Part shown: one piece after another, positions 16,775 through 25,277 of the stretch
How the letters are laid out: each line of letters opens with the position of its first letter
Position numbering within the stretch: position 1 is the first letter of the stretch
Translations under genes and position numbers: made by a program
Notes under the pieces: model-generated
What the model saw: only the letters and a program-made list of their open reading frames with translations
What the model was told of the DNA's origin: nothing
Database searches by the model: none
NCBI GenBank assembly: GCA_016793775.1
Contig: JAEULK010000106.1
Location: 1-45,048 of the forward strand
Direction of reading: 5' to 3'
Length of the DNA: 45,048 nt
Source of the DNA: Sphingopyxis sp.
Lineage (GTDB): Bacteria; Pseudomonadota; Alphaproteobacteria; Sphingomonadales; Sphingomonadaceae

Positions 16775-17725
16775 CTAAGGCGCGATCGCCAGCCCGTCGC
16801 CATTCTTGCCTGCGGACAGGCGGCGCAGCACTTGGCCGCTCGCCACGTCGATCTCGGCGACCTTGTCGATCCCGGTCTCCGCGGCATAGAGCCGCCTCGA
16901 ATCGGCGCTGAACAGCAAGGTCACCTGCCGGGCCGCGTCGCCCTCCGACACTTTGATCGTCTTGACCGGTGCGCGCGTCTCGGCATCGAACAGGCTGATT
17001 GTTCCGGCGCCGATATTGCTCGTCGCGATCAGTCGGCCATCGGGGCTGGCGAGCACGCGGATCGCGACCGGATCGACCGCCTTCTCGTCGATCTTCTCGC
17101 CCGTCGCCGTGTCCCACACCGACACCCGCGGCGCGTCGAGGTCGCCGACCCACAATTCGCGCCCGCCCTTGGCCAGCGCCAGCCCCTCGGGCTGGCCGCC
17201 GACGGGAAGGTCACGCAGCTTCTTTCCGTCCTTCAGGTCCAGCACGCTCACCGTCCCCGACGCGATATTGGCGGTGTAGGCGGTGCGATGGTCGGGTGCG
17301 ACGACGACCATATGCGTGCCCTGCTGCCCCGTGGCGATCGACGTGACGCCTCCGCCGGGCGCCACCACCGCGACCGACCGGCTCGCCTCCGCCGTCGCCA
17401 CCAGCCGCCCGTCGGGCAACCACGCCAGCCCGTGCGGGCGCTGGTTCGGGCTGAGGTCGATCGTCCTCACCTTCGCGCGCTTTGCGACATCGACGATGTC
17501 GATCGTCGTCCCGCCATAAGCGGCGACCGCCGCCCGTTGTCCGTCGGGCGACACCGCAATCTCGTGCGGCATCTTGCCCGTCGGCACTCGCGCCAGCTCG
17601 ATCCCGGTGTCGAGCGCGACCAGGCTCAGCGTGTCCTCGCCCTTGTTGCCGATCAACAGTGTTTCGGCCGCCACAGGCGGGACCGCAAACAGCAGGATGG
17701 ACAGGATGGCGGCGGTGCGGCGCAT
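16775..17725 (-). CDS. secreted YVTN-type beta-propeller protein
   Basis: A 316-aa protein with a signal peptide (MRRTAAILSILLFAVPP, cleavage near AAE) and about seven repeats of the YVTN/NHL type, such as EIAVSPDGQRAAVAAYGG and RVLASPDGRLIATSNIG, filling the whole chain. Such propellers are periplasmic or secreted binding scaffolds; some accompany PQQ-dependent catabolism. No catalytic residues are recognised. The start at 17725 is set by GGGGAGA; a longer reading adds a non-signal leader. It diverges from the peptide cassette at 17900. Confidence 0.85.
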   Translation of the reverse strand: MRRTAAILSILLFAVPPVAAETLLIGNKGEDTLSLVALDTGIELARVPTGKMPHEIAVSPDGQRAAVAAYGGTTIDIVDVAKRAKVRTIDLSPNQRPHGLAWLPDGRLVATAEASRSVAVVAPGGGVTSIATGQQGTHMVVVAPDHRTAYTANIASGTVSVLDLKDGKKLRDLPVGGQPEGLALAKGGRELWVGDLDAPRVSVWDTATGEKIDEKAVDPVAIRVLASPDGRLIATSNIGAGTISLFDAETRAPVKTIKVSEGDAARQVTLLFSADSRRLYAAETGIDKVAEIDVASGQVLRRLSAGKNGDGLAIAP

Positions 17726-17899
17726 GGCGTGTCTCCCCGAAATGTCGCCGCACCCTATGGCGCCGCGACGCGCGGGCAAGGGCCGTTCGACGAACGGCGT
17801 CGTGCGACATTACGATAAGTTAACTGGCTCTCACGGTGCGCTTTTCCGATCCTCCTTTGCGGCGGCTAGCCGGCCGTCCTTTTGTTCAGGGAGGGAAGA

Positions 17900-18046
17900 A
17901 TGAATCTGCCATCCATCGACATCGACGCCATCCCGTTGCTCGACACCGTCGTCGGGCTCTTCGGCTCGCTCATGACGCCCATGGCGCAATCGGGGCCGTC
18001 GGTCTTCGAGGTGTCGGTCACCGTCGTGCTGATCATCAACGACTGA
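17900..18046 (+). CDS. 48-aa peptide, candidate precursor peptide
   Basis: A short gene preceded by GAGGGAAG at the right distance. The product begins MNLPSIDIDAIPLLDTV, then has a GLFGS block, a Met/Gly-rich middle and a hydrophobic Val/Ile-rich tail ending in IND. There is no Cys, no signal peptide and no long charged tract. It lies 53 bases before two overlapping genes that share a HEAT-like tail, one of which looks like a metal-dependent cupin enzyme. Size and position fit a precursor peptide with an acidic, hydrophobic leader. I do not recognise the family, and the assignment as a substrate is inference. Confidence 0.6.
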   Translation: MNLPSIDIDAIPLLDTVVGLFGSLMTPMAQSGPSVFEVSVTVVLIIND

Positions 18047-18099
18047 CCGGGCTGCGGGCGTAGGCTTCGGCGCTGCGCCCGCATTTCGAAAGCCGTACG

Positions 18100-19077
18100 A
18101 TGCCTGCATTTTCCCGCCACGATCATTTCCCCCGGTCCGACGCGGCGCGTTGCCGGTCGATCCGCCGCACCGCGGCCGATCTCGCCGCGCTATGGTCGAT
18201 CGCGGATGCCGCGCCAGGCGGCCTCACCGCCGCGCTTGATGCCGCAGCCGGGCTCGATCCCGGCCAAGCCATCGACCATCTTCGCCCTTGGCTCGCCGAT
18301 CCGCGCTGGCTTGCGGCGCGATTGACGCAGGCGCTCGGCCTGCTCGCCGCCGATCCCTTCGCGCGCCCGCCTCTGCGCATCGTCGGCGGCGGTGGTTCCG
18401 GCGGGCTGATCCTGGCCGAGCGCGGTCCGATCCGCCTGTCGCTCCAGCTGATCCCCTTCGACATGATCGCCTCCCCGGCGACCGTGCTGTTCCTTCCCGG
18501 CCGCACGGCGACCCGCGTCCTCGCCGCGGGCGGTGCATGCCGGACCTCGCACCATGTCGCGCTCTCCGCCGCCGAGGAAGCGGGCGGCTTCACCGCGGGG
18601 GGCGCCGCGCCCTGTCGCAGCGATCCGCCGCAGCCGCTGATGGTCGGCGAGATATTCGATCTCGACACCACGCGCACCGCCTTCACCGTGGTCGGCGCGA
18701 CCGGCGATGTCCTCCTCCTCGAACTCGCGGTGCAGCCGCCGTCGCCGCTGCCGATGCGCGCCTACGACATCGCGAGCGGGCGCCTTGTCCATGTGGCGGC
18801 GTCGCGCCGCGACAGCAGTTTCCGTGGCATGGCACTCGCGCTGCTTCGCACGATGGGATGCCGCGCTGCCGCGCCGCTCTTCGTCGAAGCGACCGAGGCC
18901 CAGGATTTCGCGGCACGCTGGGGCGCGATGCGCGAGCTGGTCGCGCTCGATCCCGCCGCCGCCCACCCGCGCCTCGCCGCGATGGCCGCGTCCGACCCGC
19001 ACCCCGAGGTGCGTGCTGCCGCGGCCGCGACGCTGGCGCTCTTCACCGTTTCCAAGGCCGAGCCATGCCCCGCCTGA
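18100..19077 (+). CDS. HEAT-repeat protein, cupin-like middle without metal ligands
   Basis: A 325-aa protein of unknown function. Residues 20-85 are Ala/Leu-rich helices; 95-215 look beta-rich (ERGPIRLSLQLIPFD, LFLPGRTATRVL, GDVLLLELAV); 268-316 form one or two HEAT-like helical repeats ending DPHPEVRAAAAATLALF. The beta-rich part lines up in spacing with the cupin-like part of the next protein, but GRTATR stands where that protein has the HDH motif, and no later histidine pair is present. It may be a non-catalytic partner. Its end overlaps the next gene by 13 bases, implying translational coupling. Confidence 0.65.
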   Translation: MPAFSRHDHFPRSDAARCRSIRRTAADLAALWSIADAAPGGLTAALDAAAGLDPGQAIDHLRPWLADPRWLAARLTQALGLLAADPFARPPLRIVGGGGSGGLILAERGPIRLSLQLIPFDMIASPATVLFLPGRTATRVLAAGGACRTSHHVALSAAEEAGGFTAGGAAPCRSDPPQPLMVGEIFDLDTTRTAFTVVGATGDVLLLELAVQPPSPLPMRAYDIASGRLVHVAASRRDSSFRGMALALLRTMGCRAAAPLFVEATEAQDFAARWGAMRELVALDPAAAHPRLAAMAASDPHPEVRAAAAATLALFTVSKAEPCPA

Positions 19078-19949
19078 TCGACCCGCCCGCCGGCCCGGCT
19101 CTCGACCTCCAGGAAGTCGCCGCGCGCCTCGACGAAAGCATGATCGACCTCCATGACGAAGCGAGCGTCGCCGATGCCGCACGGCTCGTCGCTGGTCTCG
19201 CGCAGAACCGCACCTTCCTTGCCGACCATATCGTCGCCGAACTCAAGACGAGCTTCACGAACCAGCTCGGCCTCAGCCATTATTCGGCGCAGGTGCTGGT
19301 GCTCCATCGCAGCCCGCGCGGCCCGTTCCTGCGCGCCAACCTGTGGCCCGCCGCCAGCGACGCGGCCTATGCGGCGAGCGGCGCCGCCGCCTTCGCCTAT
19401 GGCCTGCCGCACGACCATAATTTCAGCTTCGTCACCACCGGCTATTGGGGCCCGGGCTATGTCAGCGACGATTATGCCTGTGACCCCGAGGCGATCGATG
19501 GCCGCATCGACGAGCCGCTGGACCTGCAATTGGCAGGGCGCAGCCAACTGAGCGAAGGCAAGACCATGCTCTACCGCGCCCACCGCGACATCCACAGCCA
19601 GCACCCCCCGACGAGCTTGTCGGTCAGCCTCAACATCATGGAAGAGGGCGAACACACCTCCTGGCGCGACCAATATATCGTCGATCGGGAGCGCGGTACG
19701 ATCGCGCGGCGCCCGACGGTGACGCCGGCGGAGATGCTGCTGCGCTGCGCGGTGCATTTGACCGACGAAGCCAAGGACATCGCCGACCATTTCGCGAGCG
19801 CGCACCCGGTGCCGCGCGTCCGCGCCAATGCGATCGCCGCGCTGGCCGCGGTGGAGGACGGCGCGGGCAGGGCGGCGGTGCTGGAGCTGGGGCTGCGCGA
19901 TGCCGATGCGCGGGTGCGCGATGATTGTGCGCGCTGGCTGGCGGTTTAG
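19065..19949 (+). CDS. cupin-like protein with three-His metal motif and HEAT-like tail
   Basis: A 294-aa protein. Residues 75-192 look like a cupin/cysteine-dioxygenase-type barrel. His116 and His118 lie in LPHDHNF, followed by a GYWGPGY turn. A later strand carries His173 and His177 in YRAHRDIHSQH. These would give the three-His iron site of thiol-dioxygenase-like enzymes, with no Glu after the first pair. Residues about 243-294 are HEAT-like (VPRVRANAIAALAAVED, DARVRDDCARWLAV). I do not recognise a named family. With the 48-aa peptide and the paralogue-like partner upstream, an oxidative peptide-modifying role is the working idea, not a demonstrated one. Confidence 0.65.
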   Translation: MPRLIDPPAGPALDLQEVAARLDESMIDLHDEASVADAARLVAGLAQNRTFLADHIVAELKTSFTNQLGLSHYSAQVLVLHRSPRGPFLRANLWPAASDAAYAASGAAAFAYGLPHDHNFSFVTTGYWGPGYVSDDYACDPEAIDGRIDEPLDLQLAGRSQLSEGKTMLYRAHRDIHSQHPPTSLSVSLNIMEEGEHTSWRDQYIVDRERGTIARRPTVTPAEMLLRCAVHLTDEAKDIADHFASAHPVPRVRANAIAALAAVEDGAGRAAVLELGLRDADARVRDDCARWLAV

Positions 19950-19993: not shown

Positions 19994-21817
19994 ATGACAA
20001 CGCCTCTTTCGCATATTCGCAACTTTTCGATCATCGCGCACATCGACCATGGCAAGTCGACGCTTGCCGACCGGCTGATCCAGTTCACCGGGGGGCTGAC
20101 CGCGCGCGAAATGTCGGCGCAAGTCCTTGATAACATGGACATCGAGAAGGAGCGCGGGATCACGATCAAGGCGCAGACGGTGCGCCTGTCGTACAAGGCG
20201 CACGACGGCGAGACCTATGAACTCAACCTGATGGACACGCCCGGCCATGTCGACTTCGCTTATGAAGTGTCGCGCAGCCTGGCGGCGTGCGAGGGCGCGC
20301 TGCTGGTCGTCGACGCGGCGCAGGGGGTCGAGGCGCAGACGCTGGCCAACGTCTATCAGTCGATCGAGCACGACCATGAAATCATTCCCGTCATCAACAA
20401 GATCGACCTGCCCGCGGCCGACGTCGACAAGGTGAAGGCCGAGATCGAGGATATCATCGGCCTGCCCGCCGACGACGCGGTGCTCGCCAGCGCCAAGGCC
20501 GGCATCGGCATCGAGGAAGCGCTGGAGGCGATCGTCACGCGCATCCCGCCGCCGAAGGGCGACGCCGCGGCGCCGCTGGTCGCGATGCTCGTCGACAGTT
20601 GGTACGACCCCTATCTGGGGGTCGTCATCCTGATCCGCGTCGTCGACGGGGTGCTGAAAAAAGGCCAGCAGATCAAGTTCATGCAGGCGGGCACCACCCA
20701 TCTGATCGACCGCGTCGGATGCTTCACGCCCAAGATCGAGCAGCTGACCGAGCTCGGCCCCGGCGAAATCGGCTTCATCACCGCGCAGATCAAGGACGTC
20801 GCGCAGGCGCGTGTCGGCGACACCGTCACCGACGCCAAAAAGCCTGCGGCACAGGCGCTGCCGGGGTTCAAGGAGGTCCAGCCGGTCGTCTTCTGCGGCA
20901 TGTTCCCGACCGACGCCAACGACTTCGAGAAATTGCGCGAATCCATCCAGAAGCTTCGGCTCAACGATGCGTCGTTCAGCTTCGAGATGGAAAGCAGCGC
21001 GGCATTGGGCTTCGGCTTTCGCTGCGGCTTCCTGGGCCTGCTCCATCTGGAGATCATCCAGGAGCGGCTGACCCGCGAATATGACCTCGACCTGATCACC
21101 ACTGCGCCATCGGTGGTGTACAAGCTGAAGCTGGGCCATACGAAGAATGAGGCGGCGAAGGAGATCGAGCTCCACAACCCCGCCGACATGCCCGACCCCA
21201 ACCGCATCGACGAGATCGAGGAGCCGTGGATCGAGGCGGTGATCTATGTCCCCGACGAATATCTGGGGCCCATCCTGAAGCTGTGCCAGGACCGCCGCGG
21301 TATCCAGAAGAATTTGACCTATGTCGGCGGCCGTGCGCAGATCACCTATGAACTGCCGCTCAACGAGGTGGTGTTCGATTTCTATGACCGGTTGAAGAGC
21401 ATCAGCCGCGGTTATGCGAGCTTCGACTATCACCAGATCGGCCACCGCCCCGGCGACCTCGTCAAGATGAGCATCCTGGTCAACAACGAGCCGGTCGACG
21501 CGCTGAGCATGATCGTCCACCGCGGCACCGCCGAGACGCGCGGCCGCGGCATGTGCGAGCGGCTGAAGGACCTGATCCCGCGCCACATGTTCAAAATCCC
21601 GATCCAGGCCGCGATCGGCGGCAAGGTGATCGCCCGCGAAACCATCGCCGCGCTGCGCAAGGACGTGACCGCCAAATGCTACGGCGGCGACGCGACGCGC
21701 AAGAAGAAGCTGCTCGAGAAGCAGAAAGAGGGCAAGAAGCGGATGCGCGAATATGGCAACGTCAATATCCCGCAGGAGGCGTTTATCGCGGCGCTGCGGA
21801 TGGGGGATGATGCCTGA
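19994..21817 (+). CDS. lepA: elongation factor 4 (LepA), ribosome-associated GTPase
   Basis: A 607-aa translational GTPase that acts on stalled or mis-translocated ribosomes. The G-domain motifs are AHIDHGKST (G1), RGITIKAQT (G2), DTPGHVDF (G3), NKIDLP (G4) and SAKAG (G5). It has the EF-G-like domains and the LepA-specific C-terminal region with [16 protein letters not shown]. Length is typical. It starts 44 bases after the HEAT/cupin gene, so it may share transcription, but its function is unrelated. It is convergent with the gene at 21821. Confidence 0.97.
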
Positions 21818-22169: not shown

Positions 22170-25100
22170 TCAAGGGCTGGGAGCAGGCCCCAGCAGATTC
22201 TCCACAAGTTTTTCGATCTCGCCGGCGATGCCATCGGCGATCAGAGCGTCGCGTACCCGCTTCCGCGCACGCTGGAATTTTTCATCTTCCTTCAGGATGA
22301 CCATTGCCGCCTTTTCTTCGGCCTGCGCGCCTGCTTCGGCGAGATCACGATGGAGTTTGAGTTTGGCGTTGTAGCGCGGAATTGGGAGGTTCCAGATGAC
22401 CTTGTGAAAGTGGCGAGCGCCAAATTGACCTCGGGCCTGAAAATTCTCTGCGCGGACCCTTGCAATTTCGCTATTCAGAATGGCTATCAAGTACGCCGCT
22501 TCATCTTCATCATTTGCTGCGCACCAGTAGAGGGAACTATCTACCACAGCGATATGATCGCGAATGATGCACGCAGCCAATAATGATCCAGATGTCGCGT
22601 AGACTACTCGCAGATTTGGTATAGGGAACTGGCTTGACAATTTCCCGTAGTAATCAAATTGCTCGATAAGGCTTATAGTGGTTGAATCCGACCGGTTTGT
22701 GTTCCAAACTTCTTCTGCGATCTGCATCCAGTCAGCGATATTTTTATAGCCAGCAGCAGTTTTTATGCCATTTTCGAGATTGTGGGCGGCTTGTGCGTCA
22801 AGGGGCCCACGATCCGACTCAAATGGGATAACCCCTTCAAAAGGTTGAAAAATACGATAGGGTAAGATGCTCTCGCCTAGATAAATGGGTCGCAGAAATC
22901 GTGACTCTACCCGATTCTCAATTCCATCAAGGCTTTTCCACGGTTCCTTTTCAAGCGATGAACGTTTGCTCATTACCATTGGCGCACTTGGATCTGCGCC
23001 TAAGCGGCCCATCGCTTTATGATCGACCAAGCATAACATCCGAGGGACCAGAATAGCGCCCTGCGAGAACATATTTCGATAGGGCGAGCCCCCAGTAAAA
23101 ATCGCTTCCGTCGGCGCGTCGACGTTCTCGCGGACCGTTAGCCGTTCATCGGCCATTTCTTCGGGAGCGTCACGCATGGGTAGCCAGCCCGAGTAAGCGC
23201 GCACCTTATCCGGCATTTTTTGTGCAAGGGCACGTTTGCGACCGAAGACGGTGCAGGCGGGGACGGGAAACAGCGGCGTCACGCTATCGTCCATCGTCCA
23301 GGCTTCGTCCCAAGCGATACAATAGCTGGCAAAGCTGCCGCGCCGGAATTTTTCAAACTGGCCGCGCGATAAAACGGCAAGCGGGAGGACGAAAGCGAGA
23401 CGGCCAGCGGGGCGAAGATAGAGATGCGACGCGCGGACGGTGAACAACGCACACAGGTCATTCTGCGTCGCGAATTTGCCGCCAACAAAAACACGTTCGC
23501 CATTAGACAGCGCCTTGAACCGCTTCTGCAAATCGCCGCTCATATGCCGGAACGCCACCCAGGGCGGATTGCCGACCAACACATGGGCCCAGCCGCTGCG
23601 CGTCGCGAGCGAGAGCGGGCGCGACAGGTTGCGTGCGACATAGGACCAGATGGTGTCGCGCCCTTCGCGCCGCAGCCGGTCGAAGATCTCGTAAGTCGCG
23701 CCAAGGTCGCGGATGGCGCGGCGATGCTCGTCATCGATGCCTTCGGGCCTCTTGCCGCTGGCGCGTTCGATCTGGGTCATCGGCCGCTCGAGCAGATGGC
23801 GGTCGGTGATGGTCTCCAGCGACGTCTCGATCTGGTCGCGCGTCAAATCGGCCAGGCTGCCGGTGCGCATGCGCTCGATCGCCTTGTCGAACAGCCCCGG
23901 ATCGCGGCAGAAGGTCTCGGGAAAGGACAGGACTTCGCGGCCGCGGATTTCCCCCCGCAGTTCGGCCCCGGCAGGAGGCGGCGGCACACGGATTTCCAGC
24001 CTTGTGTCGTTGATGGTCTGGGCAATGCCGAGCTGCATCGCGTCACCCAGATAGACCGGAACGCCAAAGCCGCCGTTGCGCCCGACGAGCGCCGGGGCGA
24101 GCGCGAGCAGATAGGTGACGCGGGCGATGATGACCGCGACCGGATGGATATCCATGCCGGTGACGCGCTGCGCTGCTTCGGCGGCACGCTCGCCGCGCGG
24201 GATGCCGGCGTCTTCGGCTTCGGCGAGCACGCGGCGCACCGCGTGGAACAGGAAGGTGCCCGAGCCGCAGGCGGGATCGAGGACATTCTGTTCGAGCGGA
24301 CGATCGACGGCATGGCGGACGACTTTCGCAGCGAGCCAGTCGGGTGTGTAATATTCGCCGAGTCCGTGGCGTTCGTCGCGGTCGATCAGCGATTCATAGA
24401 GGATTTTGAGGACGTCGCTCTCCACCTCATTCAGCCGGAAACGACGGACATGGGCGATGATTCTGCGCACCAACGCCTCGCCATCGGGGTCGGCGACGAC
24501 CCAGTCGAAGAAATCGCTTTCGACGGCGCCGTTTATGCCCGCCGCGGTGAAGGCTTCGCCCGAGAGCAGCTTTTTCGGATCATCCTCGGGCAAGTGCATG
24601 ACAGCGAGCGCGATGCACTTTGCGACGATGACGAGGTAGCTATGCTGGAACCAGAGCGCGTCGTTTTCGACATCGCGGCCATAGACCTGTTTGAGCAGCT
24701 CGGCCCAGAGTTGCCGTTTCAGCGCCTCGGCCGGGACGGTTTGCAGCTTGGCCCACAGCGCCCGGAGCTCGGTATCGACGCGATGGAAAGCAAAGCTGTC
24801 GTGCCCCAGTTCGGCGCGGATGGTGAGGGCATCGGGGGGCAGCGAAGATTTGAGCGCCAGAGCGCCATCGAGCCACGCCAGAAAGGCCTCGCCCTTTTCG
24901 GGATCGAGGATGGTTTCCTTGATGGTGGCCAGCTTGCCTTCGGCGAGTTCGAGGGCCACCCAGCGGCGTCCGTCGGACGCGATGCCGACATAGGGTTCCT
25001 TGTCCTGTCGTTCGCGGTCCGACAGATAGCCGGGCATTTTCCGTTCGACGTCGGCCCATTCCTTGTCGAGATCGCGTTTCGCCTCAAAGATGGTGCGACC

Positions 25101-25277
25101 GACGAGCGCGTCGAGGCGGCCCGCAATGACGGGCTGACGAACCTCGAAATTCAAATTTCCGCGTTCGATATCGAATTCGCGAACGAGCAAATCGAGAAAG
25201 CCAGCCTTGACCTCGTCATGCCCTGGCTTGCCCGCGAGTTGTTGGAGAAGCGTCTTGGTCGCGTCGTCGATCGTCAT
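22170..25277 (-). CDS. type IIG-like restriction endonuclease / N6-adenine DNA methyltransferase
   Basis: A 1035-aa fused restriction-modification protein. A PD-(D/E)xK-type nuclease motif is visible at the N-terminus: Asp56, then Glu65-Ala-Lys67 (TIFEAKRD). The gamma-type methyltransferase carries the SAM motif DPACGSGTFLF near residues 333-343 and the catalytic NPPW near 567. The C-terminal third is the likely target-recognition region; its DNA (about 22440-23100) is clearly richer in A/T than the rest, suggesting exchange of specificity domains. It would both methylate and cut the same site, using one polypeptide. No separate specificity subunit is seen nearby. Confidence 0.85.
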   Translation of the reverse strand: MTIDDATKTLLQQLAGKPGHDEVKAGFLDLLVREFDIERGNLNFEVRQPVIAGRLDALVGRTIFEAKRDLDKEWADVERKMPGYLSDRERQDKEPYVGIASDGRRWVALELAEGKLATIKETILDPEKGEAFLAWLDGALALKSSLPPDALTIRAELGHDSFAFHRVDTELRALWAKLQTVPAEALKRQLWAELLKQVYGRDVENDALWFQHSYLVIVAKCIALAVMHLPEDDPKKLLSGEAFTAAGINGAVESDFFDWVVADPDGEALVRRIIAHVRRFRLNEVESDVLKILYESLIDRDERHGLGEYYTPDWLAAKVVRHAVDRPLEQNVLDPACGSGTFLFHAVRRVLAEAEDAGIPRGERAAEAAQRVTGMDIHPVAVIIARVTYLLALAPALVGRNGGFGVPVYLGDAMQLGIAQTINDTRLEIRVPPPPAGAELRGEIRGREVLSFPETFCRDPGLFDKAIERMRTGSLADLTRDQIETSLETITDRHLLERPMTQIERASGKRPEGIDDEHRRAIRDLGATYEIFDRLRREGRDTIWSYVARNLSRPLSLATRSGWAHVLVGNPPWVAFRHMSGDLQKRFKALSNGERVFVGGKFATQNDLCALFTVRASHLYLRPAGRLAFVLPLAVLSRGQFEKFRRGSFASYCIAWDEAWTMDDSVTPLFPVPACTVFGRKRALAQKMPDKVRAYSGWLPMRDAPEEMADERLTVRENVDAPTEAIFTGGSPYRNMFSQGAILVPRMLCLVDHKAMGRLGADPSAPMVMSKRSSLEKEPWKSLDGIENRVESRFLRPIYLGESILPYRIFQPFEGVIPFESDRGPLDAQAAHNLENGIKTAAGYKNIADWMQIAEEVWNTNRSDSTTISLIEQFDYYGKLSSQFPIPNLRVVYATSGSLLAACIIRDHIAVVDSSLYWCAANDEDEAAYLIAILNSEIARVRAENFQARGQFGARHFHKVIWNLPIPRYNAKLKLHRDLAEAGAQAEEKAAMVILKEDEKFQRARKRVRDALIADGIAGEIEKLVENLLGPAPSP

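Follow-up and report, generated by a model that had tools for sequence, protein, structure and literature searches.

The DNA analysed here (the window) is the 45,048-nt contig JAEULK010000106.1 of Sphingopyxis sp., assembly GCA_016793775.1. It carries a cassette of three genes, all on the plus strand. The first encodes a 48-amino-acid peptide, a candidate precursor (17900..18046), the second a protein of 325 amino acids that we call the partner (18100..19077), and the third a candidate enzyme of 294 amino acids (19065..19949), the start of which overlaps the partner gene by 13 nt. A Shine-Dalgarno-like GGAGGG, read from the sequence, lies at 17890..17895 (+) ahead of the peptide ATG. The arrangement given in a preliminary description of this DNA, a small gene with its own ribosome site followed by two overlapping genes, was confirmed by these open reading frames (ORFs), this site and this overlap. 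A comparable purine-rich site was seen by eye ahead of most of the homologues inspected in the genus.

The AlphaFold model of the enzyme consists of a thiol-dioxygenase-like barrel (strands in residues 77-215) and a HEAT-like helical tail (residues 221-293), and both parts had been anticipated for this protein. The motifs HDH and AHRDIH occupy residues 116-118 and 172-177. H116, H118 and H177 were kept in all 119 aligned enzyme sequences, the window included, while H173 of AHRDIH was present in only 96 of them. The three-His pattern first drawn from the two motifs therefore holds for the former three residues and not for H173. Judged from this conservation, H116, H118 and H177 are the predicted metal site, with the first two ligands encoded by the H116-D117-H118 codons at 19410..19418 (+) and the third by the codon at 19593..19595 (+). 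The alignment was made without three loci: L153, in which H177 is replaced by R, L170, in which the enzyme ORF is cut short, and L258. The copies at L153 and L170 appear to be decaying.

Profile searches placed the enzyme in no described metalloenzyme family. Pfam returned HEAT only, below threshold. Neither the window enzyme nor 24 diverse family members matched the CDO/cupin families or PF05118 (aspartyl/asparaginyl beta-hydroxylase), and none of 24 enzyme relatives matched an NCBIfam model above its curated cut-off. Kinship with PF05118 was compared directly with hhalign and was not supported, the score of 13 (E 0.48) being at the level of reversed or shuffled controls; at least one of the 27 rows fetched for this comparison was translated in the wrong frame. 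The PF05995 profile, sought as a comparison set, gave no match in 58 genomes of the class.

The model of the partner shows helices at residues 15-84, barrel strands at 93-233 and a HEAT tail at 237-320. The partner had been described as sharing the tail of the enzyme; it does so, and in the model it shares the barrel fold as well. In the tail R273 and W274 were each kept in 98% of 117 aligned partners. No His is conserved in the partner family, the best columns reaching 56% and 50%, so that the protein looks like a pseudoenzyme, that is, a catalytically dead relative of the enzyme as far as the model and the profiles indicate. Pfam identified HEAT_2 in the partner above the cut-off (E 8.6e-8); a plain HEAT scaffold was ruled out by the barrel in the model and by the profile comparison, in which the two families aligned over 238 columns (hhalign E 1.3e-8). 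With the barrel parts alone E was 0.011; the score of 21.7 compares with 10 to 16 in controls that were reversed or shuffled. Narrower family alignments were unconvincing (E 0.089). The proposed kinship of the two barrels thus rests mainly on the predicted structures. Weak hits of the partner to MccV (E 0.0094, below cut-off) and to NCBIfam models, the best of which fell far short of its cut-off (E 0.00018, 19.9 bits against 1196), were put down to HEAT repeats or to chance.

The 48-amino-acid peptide gene is a real gene under purifying selection and not a chance ORF. In 45 aligned peptides of the genus (L059 and the remnant L086 excluded), uncorrected synonymous and nonsynonymous differences per site were pS 0.42 and pN 0.18, and pN was 0.11 for the leader and 0.24 for the remaining residues; the uncorrected pN/pS was 0.42 overall and 0.26 in the leader. 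This bears out the expectation that the frame is conserved at the protein level. The peptide can be divided into a leader (residues ~1-24), a variable linker (25-33) and a hydrophobic C-terminal part (34-48). In the window the leader is MNLPSIDIDAIPLLDTVVGLFGS and the hydrophobic core is SVFEVSVTVVLIIND. Residues P4, P12, L14, T16, V18, G19, L20, G22, F36 and V40 are invariant in the 45 peptides, and E37 and I45 are nearly so. Across genera the leader, approximately MxLPKIDLxxLPDLDxxxGxFGS, is kept, and the C-terminal part is variable and mostly hydrophobic: the window has SGPSVFEVSVTVVLIIND, many Erythrobacteraceae have DDRIVVIMVYxYETxPP-like ends, and QQEVGGPLCLGVVVAVLLAL and similar GG forms occur elsewhere. 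An acidic core residue is constant, with D in 79 of 79 cores of the wider set defined below, and E in 44 and D in 40 of the 45 genus cores. Cys is absent from the window peptide and from 120 of the 124 precursors of the genus and this wider set; of the four in which Cys occurs, that of L068 is artefactual, its start having been placed too far upstream. The peptide matched no Pfam family, and the precursors of nine other loci matched no NCBIfam model above its curated cut-off.

We then asked how regularly the three genes occur together. Using one genome per species from 84,980 species and one strict search pattern, enzyme relatives were found at 382 of 398 candidate stretches, and the best 80 of the 382 (L165-L244, the named loci) were read further; they come mostly from Erythrobacter, Qipengyuania, Altererythrobacter and Novosphingobium. 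An ORF of 46-58 amino acids with the leader motif lies ahead of the partner gene in 79 of these 80 Sphingomonadales loci, the motif having been drawn partly from the same data. In the remaining locus (L213) the available sequence starts inside the partner gene, at a contig end. Controls gave 0/80 downstream, 0/80 antisense and 5/1560 in codon-shuffled windows. The leader-motif ORF was also present in 21 of 21 plus-oriented loci read from the family, 16 minus-oriented loci having been left out of this reading. A short upstream gene beginning M-x-x-P-x-I-D-x-D had been proposed as the mark of the system; the gene is there, and its actual start motif is broader, roughly M-x-x-P-x-I-D-x-x-x-(L/I)-P-x-L-(D/E/N) followed by G and F-G-S. 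The 13-nt overlap of the partner and enzyme genes was found again in 55 of the 80 named loci and in 24 of 46 genus loci.

Within the genus the enzyme matched in 60 of 80 genomes, near full length in 53, diverged in three (G012, G058, G075) and broken in four (G002, G015, G056, G077). With the peptide as the tblastn query, a match lay just ahead of the partner gene in most of the genus loci fetched. Profile search found the peptide in 55 of the 80 genomes and peptide and enzyme together in 54, two of which (G015, G077) carry a broken enzyme. All seven discordant genomes could be accounted for: the loci of G007 and G035 are cut by a contig start, the contig of G049 ends 407 nt past the peptide, G002 and G056 hold enzyme remnants, and G058 and G075 have a diverged peptide, recognized by eye, at the expected place. 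In six draft genomes (G021, G029, G038, G041, G043, G050) peptide and enzyme were on separate contigs, as if assembly breaks often fell in or near the partner gene.

Beyond the genus, profile A1 detected the enzyme in 137 of 397 genomes of the family (46 of 96 genera) and in 98 of 296 genomes of an order sample, every one of these matches being in the same family. The broader profile A2 detected it in 5 of 385 genomes of a class sample, one outside the family, and in 15 of 398 genomes of a phylum sample, two outside the class. In the families of these two carriers, profile A3 matched 6/119 and 4/118 genomes, the carriers included; these genomes belong to another class of the phylum, presumably the Gammaproteobacteria. 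The pair was found in two named Gammaproteobacteria, on a plasmid of Alteromonas stellipolaris (L245) and, much diverged, on a plasmid of Vibrio sp. ED002 (L268). A plasmid search with the window protein found Alteromonas only, and with the Alteromonas protein a Vibrio match of 23.5% was added; phage records gave no match. The very diverged short pair of the Vibrio plasmid (L268 5255-6823, +) is located between Tn3-type and restriction-modification genes.

Remote loci add tandem precursors and exporters. In L257, from another class, three precursors stand in tandem; their leaders are related (IPxLDxDV and similar), and the last two have VGGVCVxVGxxAGVxIN cores. The Alteromonas plasmid locus has two tandem precursors, and L155 contains two complete sets in tandem, with one precursor in the first and two in the second. 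L245 and L257 have a common layout of HlyD, ABC ATPase, MacB permease, precursors, partner, enzyme and a second ABC ATPase; in L258 the HlyD-ABC-MacB genes are on the opposite strand and the partner ORF is short. Precursors with a ELTLEDAEFVSGGG leader of the GG type were found in L263 and L264, where a large ORF that, judged from a motif, resembles a nonribosomal peptide synthetase lies near the short pair and the precursor (L263 7636-9163, -; L264 7152-8712, +). A short peptide that ends in a very hydrophobic stretch was seen in eight of ten remote loci (L146-L152, L154).

As for the surroundings of the cassette, a gene presumably of the beta-propeller type lies upstream in the window (16775-17779, -), and in 36 of 57 genus loci such a gene is a neighbour of the set. 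Genes that we take to be lysA-like and cysG-like are also upstream in the window. Such genes were near the set in 37 and 40, respectively, of the 57 genus loci and in 17 of the 80 named loci, all counted over limited flanks; the shared neighbourhood points to old vertical inheritance. Downstream of the enzyme, the ORF starting at 19994 is presumably lepA. In the named loci the downstream ORFs include a cluster with a DUF3089 representative (73/80) and one with an S26 signal peptidase representative (67/80). Directly after the enzyme end, or overlapping it, the three most diverged sets of the genus have an ORF that we assume, from a motif, to be an OmpR-type winged-helix regulator (L037 4202-5395, -; L064 5883-6605, +; L077 3712-4446, +). 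Further away in the window, a 1035-amino-acid ORF (22170-25277, -) with DPACGSGTF and NPPW motifs presumably encodes a fused restriction-methylation protein. A GC-rich stem-loop (18048..18088, +) directly follows the stop codon of the peptide gene. In 33 of 45 genus loci and in 1 of 79 named loci its stability was in the top 5% of the windows from the same locus, and that of the window was at the 7.7th percentile of its surroundings; the stem-loop, frequent in the genus only, was dropped as a general feature of the system.

We consider it likely, with a probability of roughly 0.7, that the three genes form a new peptide-modification system based on a paired thiol-dioxygenase fold and resembling those of ribosomally synthesized and post-translationally modified peptides (RiPPs). 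A peptide-modification layout had been read from the gene order, and the reading is now supported by the gene set, the co-inheritance, the selective constraint on the peptide, the leader and core anatomy, the His triad and the predicted folds. The peptide gene would make a precursor with a recognition leader and a hydrophobic core, and partner and enzyme would form a heteromeric maturase. The partner, with its dead barrel and HEAT tail, probably binds the leader, or else keeps peptide and enzyme in contact, and by analogy with RiPP systems it would present the core to the three-His barrel. There the enzyme, as a three-His metalloprotein, probably acts on a residue of the core with the help of Fe(II) and O2. 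The core would probably be oxidized at a non-thiol position; any assignment of the reactive residue among the constant core features is a guess. In Alteromonas-type clusters the adjacent HlyD-ABC-MacB pump probably exports the product.

Among known systems the thiol dioxygenases are closest (mercaptosuccinate dioxygenase 8vni, P. aeruginosa TDO 4tlf, cysteine dioxygenase, ergothioneine dioxygenase, PCO and ADO), with the predicted barrel type and three-His site in common with the enzyme. This fold family normally oxidizes thiols. The enzyme is only 11-19% identical to these proteins in the aligned part, has no Pfam CDO match, and differs from them in the added HEAT tail, the pseudoenzyme relative and peptide gene beside it, and a peptide mostly without Cys. 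In MNIO (DUF692) systems with a partner, such as the bufferins, a small peptide, a metal oxidase and a partner protein occur together. The layout is that of the present cassette, while the predicted fold is different, and the MNIO Pfam family matched neither large protein up to E 10. As in class II microcin and GG-leader bacteriocin clusters, an HlyD and ABC exporter accompanies GG-containing precursors in L245 and L257; these two loci stand apart by a permease of the MacB type and by their conserved pair of enzyme and pseudoenzyme. The pbs RiPP cluster offers a precedent in PbsQ, a cupin-like hydroxylase whose substrate is a ribosomal precursor; PbsQ is described as related to a JmjC protein and works alongside an MNIO, a B12-radical SAM enzyme and an arginase (PMC12257519). 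The likeness is in a cupin-like protein working on a ribosomal precursor, and the difference is in the single intact barrel with a dead relative in a three-gene cassette.

A described system of this build was not found, in line with the preliminary description, which knew of none. The three window genes matched no NCBIfam model above its curated cut-off, the PDB sequence search gave nothing meaningful for the enzyme or partner family, and the PADLOC anti-phage models gave 0 families up to E 0.01 with the three window proteins and two Alteromonas homologues. No curated family beyond HEAT covers the set, and searches among open-licence PubMed Central papers turned up none on this combination.

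Several observations weigh against a modified peptide. The core itself is conserved within the genus (F36 and V40 invariant, E37 and I45 nearly so), as would suit a functional peptide of fixed sequence more than a toxin under diversification; to judge from the sequences, a housekeeping or signalling role would be the better fit and an arms race the poorer one. Beside the set in the window neither an exporter nor a leader peptidase was recognized, so the product of sphingomonads may remain intracellular or leave through a pump encoded elsewhere. Among the 12 loci read from outside Alphaproteobacteria (L245, L257-L266, L268), only L245 and L257, contiguously, and L258, divergently, have the HlyD-ABC-MacB exporter; most of the others were read as ORF lists and not by profile. 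No precursor was found in L258 and L260, and L268 has only a downstream candidate. Of the ten remote loci mentioned above, two lack a peptide with a hydrophobic end: in L145 the candidate, a 57-amino-acid ORF, is not of this kind, and in L153 no candidate is present.

These points bear on the best surviving alternative, in which the peptide stays unmodified and serves a two-protein complex as a small constant subunit or as a regulator, the complex acting on another substrate, for example a small thiol. The conserved genus core and the missing exporter in the window suit such a role, as do the single peptide copy in each of the 55 genus genomes with a match, the general lack of Cys, and a predicted fold that includes small-thiol dioxygenases among others. 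A constant subunit is difficult to reconcile with a C-terminal part that varies strongly family-wide while the leader stays, with two or three tandem peptide genes per enzyme pair in L245, L155 and L257, with the exporters of L245 and L257, and with the GG-type leader of L263 and L264; we regard it as unlikely. Less probable still is a thiol dioxygenase that oxidizes an N-terminal or core Cys of the precursor to sulfinate. ADO and the plant cysteine oxidases (PCO) act in this way on Cys of protein N-termini, while the window peptide and nearly all other precursors have no Cys to offer, which makes non-thiol oxidation likelier than thiol dioxygenation. An unmodified bacteriocin-like peptide, with the pair as immunity or chaperone proteins that shield the producer from it, would suit the hydrophobic, glycine-rich cores that follow GG at some loci, as well as the HlyD-ABC exporters, and is the least probable of all, a metal triad kept in every aligned enzyme being unexpected for an immunity protein.

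With modification of the peptide as the preferred reading, the chances are about even that the cassette makes ribosomal natural products of a new class, found in Sphingomonadales and in some Gammaproteobacteria, for which the thiol-dioxygenase fold was repurposed to non-thiol oxidation of the core, with a dead HEAT-tailed relative binding the leader. If the peptide is modified, the pair would be a new type of maturase for ribosomal peptides, and the chemistry of the thiol-dioxygenase fold would extend to a peptide mostly without thiol. With the leader motif a large set of hidden precursors could then be found, and the intact and dead pair lends itself well to the question of how pseudoenzymes bring in their substrates.
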